Assembly: GCF_016679925.1 (NCBI RefSeq)
Contig: NZ_JAEQBW010000006.1
Span: 186,001 to 250,000 of the forward strand
DNA length: 64,000 nt
Source of the DNA: Marivirga aurantiaca
GTDB lineage: Bacteria > Bacteroidota > Bacteroidia > Cytophagales > Cyclobacteriaceae
Direction of reading: 5' to 3'
The notes beneath the pieces were generated by a model. That model worked only from the letters and a program-made list of their open reading frames with translations. It was not told where the DNA came from and did no database searches. How positions within the stretch are numbered: the stretch's first letter is position 1; each line of letters begins with the position of its first letter. Below are positions 8,183-64,000 of the stretch, piece by piece. The position numbers were made by a program, and so were the translations under genes.

Positions 8183-8690
8183 ATGGCACAAATAGCCTGC
8201 CCTCGATTGTGTCTCCTCAATCGAGCGTACAGTTCTAAAGGAATATTATTATATGGCAGAGGATGTTGGCCATCACCGGTCAGTACGGCTTCAAGCCGTC
8301 AGACCGCTAGTTTCTATTCTACTTAAACCGCTGGCTGTTGGTTTCTTTATTTGTAGCCTGTTATTGAAGCTGTAAGCAAAGCCCGGTACTGAACTGTAGC
8401 CTAACAACTTCAATAAAATTGAGAGAAAGCACCATTTATTTCACTCCTATCGGAGCTTTTTGTATGCCTGCTGGTATTTCTATTAGGATTTTACCCCTCT
8501 GGGGCAAATCAGCCTGATTGCTGGTTTGTCTTGTCCTTATCATTTGATAGATGTGCTTGGATGGCAGAGAAAGTTGTCCATCACGGTCAATATGGCTTCA
8601 AGTGACTTTGACTCGAATATATTCACAGCCGTGGTTTGTGTCTCACGAAACACTTATGGAGCCCATGCTAACTCGGCCGTAATTAAACCC
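8183..8690. repeat. Cluster of short palindromic and diverged repeats
   Basis: This non-coding stretch carries several small hairpins: ACGGCTT-C-AAGCCGT (8285-8299), CTCC-TATC-GGAG (8444-8455) and CCCCTCTGGGG (8494-8504). A roughly 50-bp segment starting with GGCAGAGGATGTTGGCCATC (from 8257) recurs in diverged form at about 8561-8606. A degenerate copy of the GTTCGTG-TCT-CACGAAC hairpin lies at 8631-8653. The stretch looks like several decayed intergenic repeat elements; no ORF was recognised. The bases up to 8863 hold the promoter of the next gene. Confidence 0.6.
8631..8653. repeat. Hairpin repeat R3, degenerate copy
   Basis: GTGGTTTGTG-TCT-CACGAAACAC, preceded by GCC. It matches the perfect hairpins at 53320-53342 and 60567-60589 but has two unpaired positions, so it looks like a decayed member of the same small family. 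Confidence 0.6.
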
Positions 8691-53199: not shown

Positions 53200-53345
53200 T
53201 ACAATAGTCCTGAAAGGGCTTCATCAACAGCGGAGTGTGTAGCACTCTGCAATTATTGTAGTGATTGAATTAAGCCCTGAAAGGGTGTTATCTCCATTAG
53301 CACATTTAATCCCTCTGCCGTGGTTCGTGTCTCACGAACCACTGA
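53200..53345. repeat. Composite palindromic repeat with R3 hairpin
   Basis: It contains CCTGAAAGGG (twice, near 53210 and 53276), GCGGAGTG-TGTAG-CACTCTGC (53230-53250) and the perfect R3 hairpin GTGGTTCGTG-TCT-CACGAACCAC at 53320-53342. No ORF is present. The remaining bases to 53519 contain a gldA promoter candidate. Confidence 0.7.
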
Positions 53346-58374: not shown

Positions 58375-59499
58375 ATGAAATTTATAGTATCCTCATCCGC
58401 ACTGCTCAAACAAATTTCAGCCATAAACGGTGTTATAACCACCAATCCTGTGGTGCCAATTTTGGAGAACTTTCTGTTTGAAATTCAAGATGGTCTTTTG
58501 ACTATCACTGCCTCTGATTTGCAGACTTCCATGATCACGGAAATCGATGTGGAATCTTCTGAGAATGGTAATATTGCAGTACCTGCCCGTATCTTAATGG
58601 ACACCCTTAAAAATTTACCGGAGCAGCCTATTACTATTTCTATCGATGTGGAAACTTATAGTATTGAAATCAGCTCAGACAATGGCCGTTATAAATTAGC
58701 CGGTGAAAATGCCACTGATTTCCCAAAAGTACAGGAAGTAGAAAACCCTGACACTGTGGATATTTCAGCTGATGTATTGTCAACAGCTATCAATCACACT
58801 ATTTATGCCACCAGTAACGATGAATTACGACCGGCAATGGGTGGGGTTTATGTGAAATTTGATGAAACCAACACCACTTTTGTAGCAACTGATGGTAATC
58901 GTCTGATCCGTTACAGAAGAGTGGATATTGCCTCAGATGCTGGTACTGGAATCATCATTCCAAGAAAAGCATTGTCTTTATTGAAAAACTGTTTACCTGC
59001 TGAGAATGTAAATGTGACTGTTGAGTTCAATATGTCCAACGCATATTTTAAATTCAACCAGATTAAAATGATTTGCCGATTGGTAGATGAGCGTTTCCCT
59101 GATTATGAAAACGTGATCCCTGCAGAAAGCAATATCAAAATGACTATTAATAGGCAGGAATTCATGTCTTCCCTGAAGAGGATCAGCATTTACGCCAATA
59201 AAACCACTCACCAGGTAAGGTTAAAAATTGCCGGTAGTGAACTACAAATATTTGCGGAAGATTTAGATTTCTCTAATGAAGCCAATGAAATTTTAGCTTG
59301 CGACCACCAGGGAGAAGATATCGAAATTGGTTTCAATGCTAAGTTTTTGGTAGAGATGTTGAACAATCTGGACAGTAAAGAAGTCAGCATTGATATGTCG
59401 GCTCCTAACAAGGCAGGTTTATTATTCCCATCTGATATGGATGAGAACGAAGATATCCTTTTATTGGTAATGCCAGTGATGTTGAACAACTATGTTTAA
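58375..59499 (+). CDS. dnaN: DNA polymerase III subunit beta (sliding clamp)
   Basis: 374 residues, standard length for the three-domain clamp. Landmarks are the N-terminal MKFIVSSSALLKQISAI, VPILENFLFEI in domain 1, ATDGNRLIRY in domain 2, and the C-terminal VMPVMLNN. It encircles DNA and tethers polymerase III. dnaN next to gldG is a familiar Bacteroidota arrangement. It is followed 11 bp later by the phhA leader promoter. Confidence 0.97.
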   Translation: MKFIVSSSALLKQISAINGVITTNPVVPILENFLFEIQDGLLTITASDLQTSMITEIDVESSENGNIAVPARILMDTLKNLPEQPITISIDVETYSIEISSDNGRYKLAGENATDFPKVQEVENPDTVDISADVLSTAINHTIYATSNDELRPAMGGVYVKFDETNTTFVATDGNRLIRYRRVDIASDAGTGIIIPRKALSLLKNCLPAENVNVTVEFNMSNAYFKFNQIKMICRLVDERFPDYENVIPAESNIKMTINRQEFMSSLKRISIYANKTTHQVRLKIAGSELQIFAEDLDFSNEANEILACDHQGEDIEIGFNAKFLVEMLNNLDSKEVSIDMSAPNKAGLLFPSDMDENEDILLLVMPVMLNNYV

Positions 59500-59510
59500 T
59501 AAGCATTAAT

Positions 59511-59540
59511 TTTGCAATTCAAAAAAAGAAACTATATTTG
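59511..59540 (+). promoter_or_regulatory. Promoter of the phhA leader
   Basis: TTTG (59511-59514), an 18-bp spacer, and TATATTTG (59533-59540) fit the Bacteroidota promoter consensus. Transcription would start about 5-7 bp later, so the leader ATG at 59547 is nearly at the transcript 5' end. Confidence 0.75.
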
Positions 59541-59546
59541 CATCCA

Positions 59547-59624
59547 ATGAAGACGACTCATAACCATTATTATTACTATCATCTATTCCTGACAGGAATC
59601 GGTAATGGTATGGTTATGCATTAA
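59547..59624 (+). CDS. Leader peptide rich in Tyr and His codons
   Basis: 25 residues. The peptide begins MKTTHNHYYYYHLFL: four consecutive Tyr codons, three His around them and a Phe nearby, then GIGNGMVMH. Such runs are typical of attenuation leader peptides that sense charged tRNA. It lies right after the promoter and ahead of a terminator (59659) and the phenylalanine hydroxylase gene, whose product is tyrosine. Pause-type pairing ATAACCAT (59561-59568) with ATGGTTAT (59610-59617) is visible in the transcript. It is presumably rapidly degraded. Confidence 0.72.
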   Translation: MKTTHNHYYYYHLFLTGIGNGMVMH

Positions 59625-59658
59625 CTATAGAAATTAAAGAAATTTAATATACCACACA

Positions 59659-59687
59659 GCCCGATTCTTATGAGTCGGGCTTTTTTT
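59659..59687 (+). terminator. Attenuator terminator of phhA
   Basis: GCCCGATTC (59659-59667) and GAGTCGGGC (59672-59680) form a 9-bp stem with a TTAT loop, then seven T. It sits between the leader peptide and phhA, so readthrough is needed to express the gene. Confidence 0.88.
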
Positions 59688-59780
59688 ATTTATAATCTGT
59701 AGGAAATCAGAAACGAAGATCAAATCCGAAAGATTATGCCTTTTTTTAAACAAAAAATTAAATAAAACACTTTAGAAAAG

Positions 59781-60521
59781 ATGAATCAGGTTTACGAAAA
59801 TTACACACCGGAAGATCAGGAAGTATGGGGAATCCTTTTTAACAGACAGTTTAAAAATATTGATCTTTCTGCCACTAAGGAATTTTCTCAGGGAGCAGCT
59901 AAAATTAAATTCACTCCGGAAGCCATCCCCAATTTTGAGGAAACAAATAAGTATCTGAAAGAATTAACCGGCTGGCAAGTTACAGCAGTTCCGGGAATAG
60001 TGGATGATGATAAATTCTTTGAGCTGCTGAGTAACAGGATTTTCCCTGCCACCACCTGGTTACGTACACGTGAGCAATTGGATTACCTGGAGGAACCGGA
60101 TATGTTCCATGATGTATTTGGTCATATTCCCTTACTGGCAAACCAGCCTTTCGTAGATTTCCTTCAAGGTCTGGCAAAAATCGGTCTGAAGTACCTGGAC
60201 AACCCCTGGGCAATTCATCTTTTAAGTAGAATTTACTGGTTTACTATTGAGTTTGGTTTAATTCGTGAGAATGGAGAACTCAAAATATACGGAGCCGGAA
60301 TTATTTCTTCTCCGGGAGAGACGAAGTTCTCATTAAGTAATGAGCCTGAACATTTGGCTTACGACATAGAGGCCATCATCGACAGCAGCTATAAAAAAGA
60401 TTCATTTCAAACGAAATACTTTATTATTGAAAATTACGAAGAATTGTATAGTTCACTGCCTTTAATTGAGCAAATTATTGAAGACAGACTGAAAGAGCAG
60501 CCTGTTAGTAAAGTAAAATGA
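59781..60521 (+). CDS. phhA: Phenylalanine 4-monooxygenase
   Basis: 246 residues, the short bacterial single-domain type without an N-terminal regulatory ACT domain. The iron ligands are in DMFHDVFGHIPLL (His-x4-His) and IYWFTIEFGLI (Glu). It turns phenylalanine into tyrosine with tetrahydropterin and O2. The leader with Tyr codons suggests control by tyrosine supply. It precedes the his genes by 126 bp, with a small hairpin repeat in between. Confidence 0.92.
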   Translation: MNQVYENYTPEDQEVWGILFNRQFKNIDLSATKEFSQGAAKIKFTPEAIPNFEETNKYLKELTGWQVTAVPGIVDDDKFFELLSNRIFPATTWLRTREQLDYLEEPDMFHDVFGHIPLLANQPFVDFLQGLAKIGLKYLDNPWAIHLLSRIYWFTIEFGLIRENGELKIYGAGIISSPGETKFSLSNEPEHLAYDIEAIIDSSYKKDSFQTKYFIIENYEELYSSLPLIEQIIEDRLKEQPVSKVK

Positions 60522-60566
60522 TAATTTTACAATACTCTGGTCTTTGCTTCACAGATCCTGCCAGCC

Positions 60567-60589
60567 CAGGTTCGTGTCTCACGAACCTG
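60567..60589. repeat. Hairpin repeat R3, perfect copy
   Basis: CAGGTTCGTG-TCT-CACGAACCTG, a 10-bp perfect stem with TCT loop. The outer stem bases differ from those of the copy at 53320-53342 (GTGG/CCAC there, CAGG/CCTG here) yet remain complementary. Confidence 0.75.
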
Positions 60590-60647
60590 TTGCATAAGTA
60601 TAGCCCTGCTCCGGTCATATCGGGGTGTTAACTAATTTATAACATAT

Positions 60648-61232
60648 ATGAAAGTAGCAATTATAAAATACAATGCAGGTAATATAAAATCAGTATTGCT
60701 TGCCTTAAAACGTTTGGGCCTTGAAGGCACTTTAACAGACAATCCGGAGGAAATTTTAGCTGCTGATAAGGTGATTTTTCCCGGTCAGGGAGAGGCGAAA
60801 TCTGCCATGCGTTATTTGAAAAGCAGAGGATTAGACCAAGTGATTAAATCCATCACGAATCCTTTCCTGGGCATTTGCTTAGGCCTGCAACTATTATGTG
60901 AGCATTCCGAGGAAGGAGATACTCCTTGCCTTGGTGTATTTAATAGCCAGGTGAAGAAGTTTCCTGATCACCTGAAAGTGCCTCATATGGGATGGAATAC
61001 CTTAAGCGAATCTGCTGACCCTATTTTTAAAGACATTCAATTTCCGGCTTATTTTTATTTCGTGCACAGCTATTATGCCACAGTTTCGGCACAAACACTA
61101 TCACAAACAGATTATATGTTACCCTTTAGTGCGGTGTTGAAAAAGGATAATTTCTACGCCATTCAGCCGCACCCTGAAAAAAGTGCGGATGTCGGAGAGC
61201 AATTTTTAAAGAACTTTTTATTCAATATTTAA
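60648..61232 (+). CDS. hisH: Imidazole glycerol phosphate synthase subunit HisH
   Basis: 194 residues. A class I glutamine amidotransferase with nucleophile Cys in FLGICLGLQLLCEH (about 80) and the His-Glu pair in IQPHPEKS. It supplies ammonia to HisF in histidine synthesis. It starts the hisH-hisA-hisF-hisIE run, with a 4-bp gap to hisA. The first his genes (hisG, D, C, B) are not here. Confidence 0.95.
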   Translation: MKVAIIKYNAGNIKSVLLALKRLGLEGTLTDNPEEILAADKVIFPGQGEAKSAMRYLKSRGLDQVIKSITNPFLGICLGLQLLCEHSEEGDTPCLGVFNSQVKKFPDHLKVPHMGWNTLSESADPIFKDIQFPAYFYFVHSYYATVSAQTLSQTDYMLPFSAVLKKDNFYAIQPHPEKSADVGEQFLKNFLFNI

Positions 61233-61236
61233 AACT

Positions 61237-61956
61237 ATGTATATAATACCTGCAATAGACATCATAGACGGAAAATGCGTTCGCTTAACAAAAGGTGACT
61301 ACAATCAGAAAACCGAGTACAACAGCAATCCATTGGCCGTTGCTAAAGAATTTGAGGCGGCCGGACTTAAACGCCTGCACCTGGTGGATTTGGATGGTGC
61401 AAAAGCCAAAAAGGTGATTAATTTACCGGTTTTACGATCAATAGCTGAGAATACTGCTTTGGAAGTTGATTTTGGCGGAGGAGTGCAAAGTACTGAGGAC
61501 CTTGCTGCAGTATTTAAAGCAGGAGCAAAGCAGATTACCGGAGGAAGTGTAGCAGTTAAAAATGAAGCGTTATTTACTGAATGGATACAGGAATTTGGAG
61601 GAGAGAAAATCATTTTAGGCGCAGATGTTAAGGGTAGGAATATAGCGATCCATGGCTGGCAGGAAAGTGCAGACTGGCACATTTTTGATTTCCTGGAGCA
61701 CTATCTCAATAAAGGAATTACACATGTAGTTTGCACTGATGTTTCCAAAGATGGGGTGCTTCAGGGAACTTCTAATGAATTGTATGCTGAAATTATAGAG
61801 AGGTTTCCTCAAATTAAGCTGATAGCAAGTGGAGGTGTCAGTAGTATGAATGATTTAGATTTATTAGATGAAATGAACATTTATGGAGCCATAGTGGGGA
61901 AAGCCATTTATGAAAAGAGGATAGAATTGAACGAATTAGAAAGATTTTTAAAATAA
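61237..61956 (+). CDS. hisA: Phosphoribosylformimino-AICAR isomerase HisA
   Basis: 239 residues, a beta/alpha barrel. Signatures: [20 protein letters not shown] at the start (Asp catalytic) and [27 protein letters not shown] in the phosphate-binding half. It isomerises ProFAR to PRFAR, the substrate of HisF/HisH. It is 1 bp before hisF. Confidence 0.96.
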
Positions 61957-61957
61957 T

Positions 61958-62713
61958 ATGCTTACGAAAAGAATAATTCCTTGCCTGGATATTAAGAATG
62001 GCCGTACTGTAAAAGGTGTTAATTTTCTGGAACTCCGTGATGCGGGCGATCCGGTTGAATTAGCTAAATTATATGCAGAACAAGGGGCAGACGAGCTGGT
62101 TTTTTTGGATATCACGGCTACCAATGAAAAGCGAAAAACTTTAGCTGAATTGGTAGGTCAGGTTGCAGAAGCCATTAACATTCCATTCACGGTGGGTGGA
62201 GGCATTAGTACAGTGGAGGATGTATCAGTATTATTGGCTGCAGGAGCGGATAAAGTTTCCATTAATTCTGCGGCAGTACGAAATCCTCAGATCATTAAAG
62301 AAATGGCTGATGAGTTTGGTTCCCAATGCATTGTAGTAGCTATTGATAGTCGTCTGGTAAACGGTAGAAACCTTGTGCATACTCATGGAGGCTCTGTTCC
62401 CACTACAATTGAAACGGAGGATTGGGTGCAAGAGGTAGTGGCTTTGGGTGCCGGGGAAATTTTATTGACTTCCATGGACCATGATGGTACCAAATCTGGC
62501 TTTGCCGATGAGCTATTGGCCAGAATTTCCTCTTTAGTGAATGTGCCCATCATTGCTTCCGGTGGGGCGGGTAATATGGAGCATTTTTTTGATACCTTTA
62601 CCACAGGGAAATCCGATGCAGCATTAGCAGCTAGTATATTCCACTTTAAGGAAATAGGCATACCTGATTTAAAAGCTTACCTGAAAGAAAAAAACATTGC
62701 CATCAGGATTTAA
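61958..62713 (+). CDS. hisF: Imidazole glycerol phosphate synthase subunit HisF
   Basis: 251 residues. [20 protein letters not shown] near the start and [17 protein letters not shown] later carry the two catalytic Asp residues; [11 protein letters not shown] is the phosphate-binding loop. With HisH it makes imidazole glycerol phosphate and AICAR. A 52-bp gap separates it from hisIE. Confidence 0.97.
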
Positions 62714-62765
62714 AAGTCTACTTATCTGAACTCATAATTCTACAAATCGTAAATCTAAATTAACA

Positions 62766-63362
62766 ATGGAGATACCTAATTTTTCAAAAGGTGAAAATGG
62801 ACTTTTACCTGCTATCATACAAGATGAAACAACAGGGAAAGTTTTAATGTTGGGCTATATGAACGAAGCCGCTTTAAAACAGACGTATGAAATTGATAAA
62901 GTAACATTTTTTAGCCGGAGCAAAAACAGGTTGTGGACGAAAGGGGAGAGCTCCGGGAATTATTTGCATGTGAGAAACATTGCTTTTGATTGCGATCAGG
63001 ATGCCATCTTGATCAAAGCAAAGCCGGAGGGGCCCACTTGCCATACCGGAGCAGATACCTGCTGGAATGAGAAAAATGAAAGCATTGGTTTTATTGCTCA
63101 ATTGGAAAGGGTAATTGAAAGCCGGAAGAATGGTGGAGATGAAAAATCTTACGTAAAGAGCTTATTTGATAAGGGAATTAATAAAATTGCCCAAAAAGTA
63201 GGGGAGGAAGCCATTGAAGTAGTGATAGAGGCCAAAGATAATGATTATGATTTGTTTCTGAATGAATCCGCAGATTTATTGTTTCATTATCTTATCTTAC
63301 TTCAGGCGAAAGGATTTAAGCTGCAGGATGTAGTTAAAATATTGGAAAGTCGTCATCGTTAA
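62766..63362 (+). CDS. hisI: Bifunctional phosphoribosyl-AMP cyclohydrolase/phosphoribosyl-ATP pyrophosphatase HisIE
   Basis: 198 residues. The HisI half has FFSRSKNRLWTKGESSGN and the metal motif FDCDQDAILIKAKP, with CHTGADTCW. The HisE half starts near residue 110 (KSYVKSLFDKGINKIAQKVGEEAIEVVIEAK; LFHYLILLQAKG). It carries out steps 2 and 3 of histidine synthesis. It is followed after 6 bp by a lipoprotein gene that may be cotranscribed. Confidence 0.95.
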   Translation: MEIPNFSKGENGLLPAIIQDETTGKVLMLGYMNEAALKQTYEIDKVTFFSRSKNRLWTKGESSGNYLHVRNIAFDCDQDAILIKAKPEGPTCHTGADTCWNEKNESIGFIAQLERVIESRKNGGDEKSYVKSLFDKGINKIAQKVGEEAIEVVIEAKDNDYDLFLNESADLLFHYLILLQAKGFKLQDVVKILESRHR

Positions 63363-63368
63363 GTGAAT

Positions 63369-63779
63369 ATGAAAACCTGGATATTTTTCTTAATCCCGTT
63401 AATATTTTTAGTCTCTTGTAAAGAAGAGGAGGAAGATAACTGTGCAGAAAGCATTGTCTGTTCCGATGTGTTCATTTCAATTAGTGTGAATATCAAAGAT
63501 TCTGATGGTGAAGCTGTAGTTTTAGATGAATTTTATACTTTTATAGATTCCAGAACTAAAATTGAATTGGATAGAAGTGATTTTCAAATTGAAAAAGGAA
63601 TTTATCCTGTTGCCACCGATGCAAATGAAGATTTAATTGATTTTGAGGGTACTAATGTGGTTTTTGTAGGTAAAATGGATGGCGAAAATGTAATAGAGCA
63701 TCCTATGATTATTGGAAAAGACTGCTGTCATATTAAGCTTATACAAGGAGAAGAAGAAATAATAATAGATGAATTATGA
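63369..63779 (+). CDS. Lipoprotein with paired Cys, unknown function (paralogue 1)
   Basis: 136 residues from the ATG at 63369. The lipoprotein signal ends at Cys17 (FLVSCKEEEE). The mature part has NCAESIVCSDVFISISVNIKDS and FYTFIDSRTKIEL, then a late Cys-Cys (KDCCHIKL). It overlaps the next gene by ATGA, and the two proteins share the pattern Cys-x6-Cys, V..I...G/E-V, YT/YS-FID. Its placement after the his operon may be incidental. Confidence 0.7.
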   Translation: MKTWIFFLIPLIFLVSCKEEEEDNCAESIVCSDVFISISVNIKDSDGEAVVLDEFYTFIDSRTKIELDRSDFQIEKGIYPVATDANEDLIDFEGTNVVFVGKMDGENVIEHPMIIGKDCCHIKLIQGEEEIIIDEL

Positions 63780-64000
63780 GGAAATTATTGATATTACTTA
63801 GCTTTATTTCATTGGCAGCCACTTGTCAGGATAAAAAATCTTCCGATGCGAAAACAGAGAATCCTTGTGATCCTGATATCATGTGTACGATGGTTTTTGC
63901 TACTGTAGATGTTCAGATTGTCAATGAGGCAGGGGAGCCTGTCAAATTTGATAAATATTATTCTGTAATAGATGGTGAAATTATTAACCTTCAGGAGCAA
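63776..64000 (+). CDS. Lipoprotein paralogue 2, partial at the right edge
   Basis: 75 codons are visible from the ATG at 63776. The lipoprotein signal ends at Cys17 (SLAATCQDKK). PCDPDIMCTMVFATVDVQIV and KYYSVIDGEII align with the upstream protein, so the two arose by tandem duplication. The ORF runs off the window edge, so the end is unknown. Confidence 0.7.
   Translation, partial: MRKLLILLSFISLAATCQDKKSSDAKTENPCDPDIMCTMVFATVDVQIVNEAGEPVKFDKYYSVIDGEIINLQEQ

Follow-up and report, generated by a model that had tools for sequence, protein, structure and literature searches.

Upstream of the phenylalanine hydroxylase gene phhA of the marine bacterium Marivirga aurantiaca lies what is very probably, judging from sequence comparison, an attenuator through which the ribosome controls transcription of the phhA-hisHAFIE operon. 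We consider it likely that its nearly leaderless 25-codon peptide acts as an OR gate for charged tRNA-Tyr and tRNA-His, coupling two unrelated pathways, and that its codons have been re-tuned by selection as the operon gained or lost his genes, giving Tyr-only, Tyr-plus-His and mainly-His sensors.

Anatomy of the phhA leader

In the window (the whole stretch of 64,000 nucleotides that was analysed), the promoter and leader region sits between dnaN and phhA, and all features of the locus described here are on the forward strand. A candidate promoter of the Bacteroidota type (-33/-7) occupies positions 59511-59540, with TTTG at 59511-59514, which we take to be the -33 element, the -7 box TATATTTG at 59533-59540, and a predicted transcription start at about 59545. 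The leader ATG stands six bases 3' of the -7 box, so that the transcript is predicted to be nearly leaderless, with the AUG about two bases after the start. The accessible text of PMC9723704 locates the box TAnnTTTG at -12 to -5, which would place the leader AUG at about +3. The exact box TAnnTTTG precedes the ATG by 4-11 nt in 35 of 94 leaders, against 1.4 expected from the density of the box, and in 28 of these 35 the spacing is 5 or 6 nt; 48 of the 94 have no exact box within 60 nt.

The leader ORF, MKTTHNHYYYYHLFLTGIGNGMVMH, has 25 codons (59547-59624) and is recognised by its sequence, its recurrence in relatives and the purifying selection seen in 31 Algoriphagus-type relatives. Its four Tyr codons are TAT TAT TAC TAT, and His is encoded by codons 5, 7, 12 and 25. 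Region 1, made of the control codons His-Asn-His-Tyr-Tyr-Tyr-Tyr-His (59559-59582), pairs over 59559-59577 with region 2 (59593-59618), which consists of the putative antiterminator 5' arm CAGGAATCGGTAATGG at 59593-59608 and serves as the partner of region 1 up to 59618. Region 3 (59656-59670) is the 5' arm of the terminator and the predicted antiterminator partner of region 2. The intrinsic terminator (59658-59690) was found by scanning and shows stem covariation in 26 relatives; it has a 10-bp stem (59658-59681) and a U-run.

Most of these parts had been named in an initial annotation of the locus, and the promoter, the 25-codon ORF with four Tyr and several His codons, the pairing region, the terminator and phhA are indeed all present. 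The pairing proposed there is that of CATAACCAT (59559-59567) with the complementary ATGGTTATG (59610-59618). Its terminator and U-run stand, with the stem corrected from nine to ten base pairs; it had missed the antiterminator, in which the leader sequence GAATCGG is able to base-pair with CCGATTC in the terminator.

The phhA gene itself (59781-60521; phenylalanine 4-monooxygenase, Pfam PF00351, NF008877 above cut-off) has its closest named relatives in Marivirga species, at 78-84% identity. It is followed by hisH (60648-61232, TIGR01855), hisA (61237-61956, TIGR00007), hisF (61958-62713, TIGR00735) and hisIE (62766-63362, NF002747). The gap between phhA and hisH (60522-60647) carries a copy of a palindromic repeat at 60569-60587, which lacks a U-run, and the scan found no intrinsic terminator in this gap; phhA and hisH are probably co-transcribed. 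Other copies of the repeat, GGTTCGTGTCTCACGAACC, are found in the window at 53322-53340 and, with two mismatches, at 8633-8651, and 35 copies with at most two mismatches occur genome-wide, against none for the reversed control. In some copies both arms vary together and the GTGTCTCAC between them stays the same, which resembles a REP element. Two ORFs after hisIE (63363-64000) resemble small lipoproteins; the first of them has no Pfam or NCBIfam match.

Scans of 58800-61500 for sigma-70-type promoters (seven sites, 8.5 in shuffles) and for terminators (one, 2.1 in shuffles) do not by themselves rise above chance; the case rests on conservation, RNA and linkage evidence. The fold of 59547-59690 has a z-score of -5.9, with none of 200 shuffles equally good.

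Recurrence and predicted folding of the leader

All ten genomes of the genus Marivirga have a phhA match, and in all ten it is preceded by a leader with YYYY or YYYYY, so that the Tyr run, whose loss in related genomes would have counted against the initial annotation, is kept throughout the genus. The C-terminal part of the leader, GIGNG, is identical in the ten. In the family, phhA was matched in 83 of 118 genomes (E<=0.001, distant homologues included). Short ORFs with at least five Tyr or His in 10 residues, within 450 nt upstream of phhA, were found at 83 of 182 distinct loci; the opposite strand gave 3/182 and dinucleotide shuffles (20 each) averaged 1.3/182, so the conserved Tyr/His-rich ORFs that the annotation suggested looking for do recur. 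Since leaders were picked on Tyr and His jointly, neither residue was favoured.

The distribution is patchy in family, order and class, and the leader reaches other orders of the class (L171 and L173, with YYYYY, where PhhA identity is about 41%). When a sample of the order was added (60 of 237 order genomes with phhA, picked for genus variety), leaders were present at 67 of the 104 phhA genes with linked his genes and at 30 of the 132 without; none was found within 450 nt of phhA in the other 37 and 102, respectively. Among the 37 leader-less linked cases (L184-L195 and others), 17 have a motif that we take to be DAHP-synthase-like just upstream of phhA, which may thus sit within a longer aromatic operon. 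Near-identical strains were retained, and four leaders with a score of 4 (L097, L140, L165, L218) were added by hand to the RNA sets of 87 and 84 sequences discussed below, not to the 94-row linkage test.

For 31 distinct Algoriphagus-type leaders, compared over 16 codons, pN/pS is 0.17 in the leader frame; the two alternative frames give 1.12 and 1.22. Purifying selection acts on the leader frame in these relatives, from which we infer that it is translated. The ratio is 0.59 for seven distinct unlinked Marivirga leaders, which have few differences. At the Algoriphagus loci (L086-L147), the start-to-start distances of phhA, hisH, hisA, hisF and hisIE differ by hundreds of bases between species, as if something repeatedly inserts into the gaps.

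A terminator follows the leader stop codon by 19-42 nt in 84 of 87 leaders. When region 2 was compared with its own shuffles for pairing with the 5' arm of the terminator, it did better at p<=0.05 in 58 of these 84 (median z -2.5), the other 26 falling short of p 0.05; the hairpin of regions 1 and 2 reaches p<=0.05 in 42 of the 84. The window itself scores p 0.035 for the antiterminator, whose arm in the leader is GGAATCGG, and p 0.005 for the pairing of regions 1 and 2, which is strong there. In 40 representatives, the mean energy of the antiterminator was -14.1 kcal/mol with its own partner and -10.9 kcal/mol with swapped partners (0 of 20,000 permutations as good), and the own partner was in the best tenth for 16 of the 40. 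The alternative fold that the annotation had asked for is thus predicted, and it co-varies with its own terminator. In the terminator stem, changes on both sides were seen in 7 of 10 pairs (26 sequences).

These elements suggest the following course of events. RNA polymerase would start about two bases before the leader AUG, with a ribosome following through the leader. When charged tRNA-Tyr or tRNA-His is scarce, the ribosome would stall on the Tyr or His codons and cover region 1; region 2 (GGAATCGGTAATGG), then free, would pair with the emerging terminator 5' arm (CCGATTC), the terminator would not form in time, and phhA and the his genes would be transcribed. With both tRNAs charged, a ribosome at the stop codon would cover region 2 and the terminator would form, as it would also without any ribosome, when region 1 pairs with region 2. 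Shortage of either tyrosine or histidine would thus open the gate.

Stalling was simulated in 84 leaders on the transcript as it is before the 3' arm of the terminator is made, with the ribosome assumed to mask up to 15 nt past the A-site. The mean simulated probability that the terminator 5' arm is sequestered was 0.69 in the stall state and 0.28 in ribosome-free RNA, and came to 0.22 when the ribosome stood on the stop codon; for the window the corresponding values were 0.73-0.74, 0.24 and 0.04. The stall value exceeded the ribosome-free value by more than 0.1 in 68 leaders, not in 16, and the stop-codon value by the same margin in 74. Simulated stalls at Tyr and at His codons were equivalent (0.68 each) and would lead to the same RNA state, which is what makes the logic that of an OR. 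At equilibrium, RNA of 59585-59690, from which region 1 has been removed, folds into the terminator and not the antiterminator, and the latter must therefore prevail by forming first. Readthrough in classical attenuators likewise depends on the antiterminator forming first. The two structures are predicted to be exclusive from their pairing and co-variation, and not from the equilibrium fold.

A covariance model (R1) was built from 26 leaders and run on 247 genomes of the class. Matches at E<=0.001 were obtained in 38 genomes, at 47 places, of which 43 were read. At 31 of these 43, a leader is followed by a gene that matches its residues: Tyr codons before phhA in nine cases (the window included, and L326 weak), Phe/Tyr before prephenate dehydratase (pheA) in 11 and before DAHP synthase in two, one of these in the window's own genome, Thr/Ile before aspartokinase (thrA) in five, Ile before threonine dehydratase in one, and His before hisG in three. 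The other 12 lack a leader that clearly matches. Pfam was used to check ten of the downstream genes, and the remainder were named by resemblance to those ten. The model thus picks up a leader plan common to these operons, and the correspondence of residues and genes that holds in the 31 matches supports the same reading for the window. The second attenuator candidate in the genome of M. aurantiaca (L347, G000:C30:276618-276748, minus strand) consists of MLNLQGRFYFYFYFIPLLRVGPCITM and a terminator before a DAHP synthase/chorismate mutase gene. A simple search of the same genome with the pattern TAYTAYTAYTAY gave 59 matches and 117 for the reversed control, and is useless alone.

Histidine codons and the his genes

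The number of His codons follows the position of hisH. Where hisH begins no more than 600 nt after phhA, 63 of 65 leaders contain at least two His in the 12-residue core; of the 29 leaders with no hisH in at least 1.3 kb, none does; of the latter, 15 have no His and 14 have one. The two linked exceptions are L266 (Y6H0) and L004 (Y5H1). The same is seen within the genus, where linkage is found in M. atlantica, with the leader HYYYYYH, and in the species of the window, with HNHYYYYH, and the eight other species, with forms such as HNTYYYYYQ, RNTYYYYYL and QNTYYYYYQ, are unlinked. That one leader could sense both amino acids had been put forward in the initial annotation, and this correspondence, down to the genus level, speaks for it. 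Some linked leaders are dominated by His (MNPTPRTYVHHSYHHQR). The leader of Anditalea (L024), in front of a phhA-his operon, has a His run with a single distant Tyr (MKKKIYLNISHHHHSVQG) and represents the opposite extreme from the Tyr-only leaders.

The linkage test left out loci with less than 1.3 kb downstream and no hisH (four of which have leaders: L018, L319, L325, L327), and removal of three duplicates reduced 97 rows to 94. On the PhhA tree, each of the two traits, His codons and hisH linkage, changes eight times, and Pagel's test favours their dependence (LR 35.8, p 3e-7, with a custom script, one tree and one rate at its bound). Concordance is 92 of 94 rows, a value reached in none of 273 simulations of independent traits, where the highest was 87; these are the simulations, out of 5000, in which both traits varied in at least 15 tips. 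Well-supported branches provide only three independent pairs; on average 2.8 of the 3 agree with the rule and none ever runs counter to it, and a sign test on these three alone is not significant (median p 0.25). One clade, Algoriphagus and its relatives, holds 41 of the 65 linked leaders. An earlier tree of 86 rows, with six changes per trait and two well-supported pairs, is superseded by the one used here.

In the unlinked Marivirga genomes, no His leader was seen in the 900 nt upstream of the separate hisH (7 of 8 genomes, those with hisH found); the highest count there is three His in 10 residues, from an ORF of L250 that starts with TTG. The eighth genome, 86% complete, has no hisH match, and hisA and hisF follow the separate hisH in the one locus listed (L251). 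A His leader ending in HAVHVFHHSSF or a close variant precedes hisG in nine of the ten genus genomes, those in which hisG was found (L239-L247).

The strongest competitor, though an improbable one, is an attenuator that senses Tyr only, with His codons that arose because CAY supplies C for pairing (ACCAT with ATGGT) or by drift from TAY. Codons TAY and CAY are one transition apart, the window does pair CATAACCAT with ATGGTTATG, and two linked leaders make do with no His or one. Against it, the number of His tracks hisH linkage after phylogenetic correction, some linked leaders are dominated by His (MNPTPRTYVHHSYHHQR) or combine a His run with one distant Tyr (MKKKIYLNISHHHHSVQG, L024), and Asn, which is also an NAY residue, is lower in linked leaders (0.43 vs 1.38 per core). 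A related idea, that the NAY codons for Tyr, His, Asn and Asp are read together by way of queuosine, was rejected, since it is the unlinked leaders that are richer in Asn, and Asp hardly occurs.

Two further explanations appear very unlikely. A simple terminator close to the promoter and free of regulation, or a gene for a small RNA, in either case with an ORF there by chance, would equally give a discrete short RNA, as any terminator soon after a promoter does, and would sit well with a terminator scan no better than chance, but selection on the frame, the recurrence at 83 of 182 loci against 1.3 and the match of residues to downstream genes all speak against it. The peptide might itself act, either as a Tyr-rich nascent chain that arrests the ribosome on a ligand or as a functional small protein, and the invariance of GIGNG in all ten genus leaders could be read that way; yet this part encodes the antiterminator arm, which elsewhere changes together with the terminator, and peptides of different families have little in common beyond their Tyr/His runs. 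The attenuator sensing both tyrosine and histidine is thus the reading that we prefer.

Known attenuators and the role of PhhA

In enterobacterial hisL, a run of control codons is followed by an intrinsic terminator with a competing antiterminator, and the ribosome stalls on codons whose tRNA is uncharged. The window element is similar in its control-codon run, intrinsic terminator and predicted competing antiterminator, and differs in having Tyr plus His codons, phhA as the first gene, a nearly leaderless ORF and no Rfam match. Indeed, no Rfam match reaches the gathering score in the window, and the five matches that 58800-64000 gives at E<=5 do not include His_leader, Phe_leader (presumably RF00514 and RF01859) or the T-box. 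Leaders that read several residues are known, thrL with Thr and Ile and the ilv leaders with Ile, Val and Leu, the residues in each being linked by one pathway family; several amino acids are read alike in the window, whereas its Tyr and His pathways are separate and joined only by the operon. The Sinorhizobium trpL is a leaderless leader peptide, with its AUG at or near the transcript start, and resembles the window leader in this placement, although it serves tryptophan and belongs to a different phylum. The putative mechanism is classical leader-peptide attenuation, and what is new, and well supported by comparison, is the combination of Tyr with His, of two unrelated pathways, and of a nearly leaderless ORF.

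According to the accessible text of PMC2965389, before its own case from Firmicutes no leader-peptide system was known outside Proteobacteria and Actinobacteria, the ermC leader aside. Within the same phylum as the window, a single sentence in PMC9723704 speaks of strong clues that amino-acid operons of F. psychrophilum are preceded by leader-peptide attenuators; tyrosine is absent from its main text, and its supplementary table may list a phhA case. Short ORFs in 5' UTRs of Bacteroides thetaiotaomicron are described as reminiscent of attenuation leader peptides in PMC7366714, where the accessible text has no mention of tyrosine and the example is a hypothetical gene. The database attenuators in the accessible text of PMC1173090 include those of tyrA operons and none before phhA. 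The main text of PMC8305728, on his genes of Bacteroidota, mentions neither leader nor hydroxylase, and the accessible part of PMC4833913 has no bearing on a Tyr/His leader. Among titles and abstract beginnings of the open-licence literature, supplements excluded, we found no mention of a leader for Tyr, or for Tyr with His, and none of phhA being attenuated, which is not proof of absence.

Phenylalanine hydroxylase is described as part of catabolism in the accessible text of PMC1173090. The genome of M. aurantiaca contains TyrA (PF02153); this protein has no match in two other genomes of the genus (G118 and G119, about 99% complete), both of which keep phhA and the Tyr leader. In the family, TyrA is without a match in 10 of 118 genomes, of which seven are at least 94% complete; all seven have phhA, and five have the leader. 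Such genomes, keeping phhA without a TyrA match, fit PhhA as a tyrosine-making enzyme, bearing in mind that absence in a profile search is not proof. The leader and the TyrA pattern together argue that PhhA makes tyrosine in these bacteria.

By these observations, leader-peptide attenuation would take in tyrosine, a phenylalanine hydroxylase and an operon that joins two pathways, and a family of Bacteroidota attenuators could be built up from model R1. Across the leaders of these bacteria, the sensor codons change with the genes that the operon contains, and this natural series makes the evolution of attenuator specificity directly testable.
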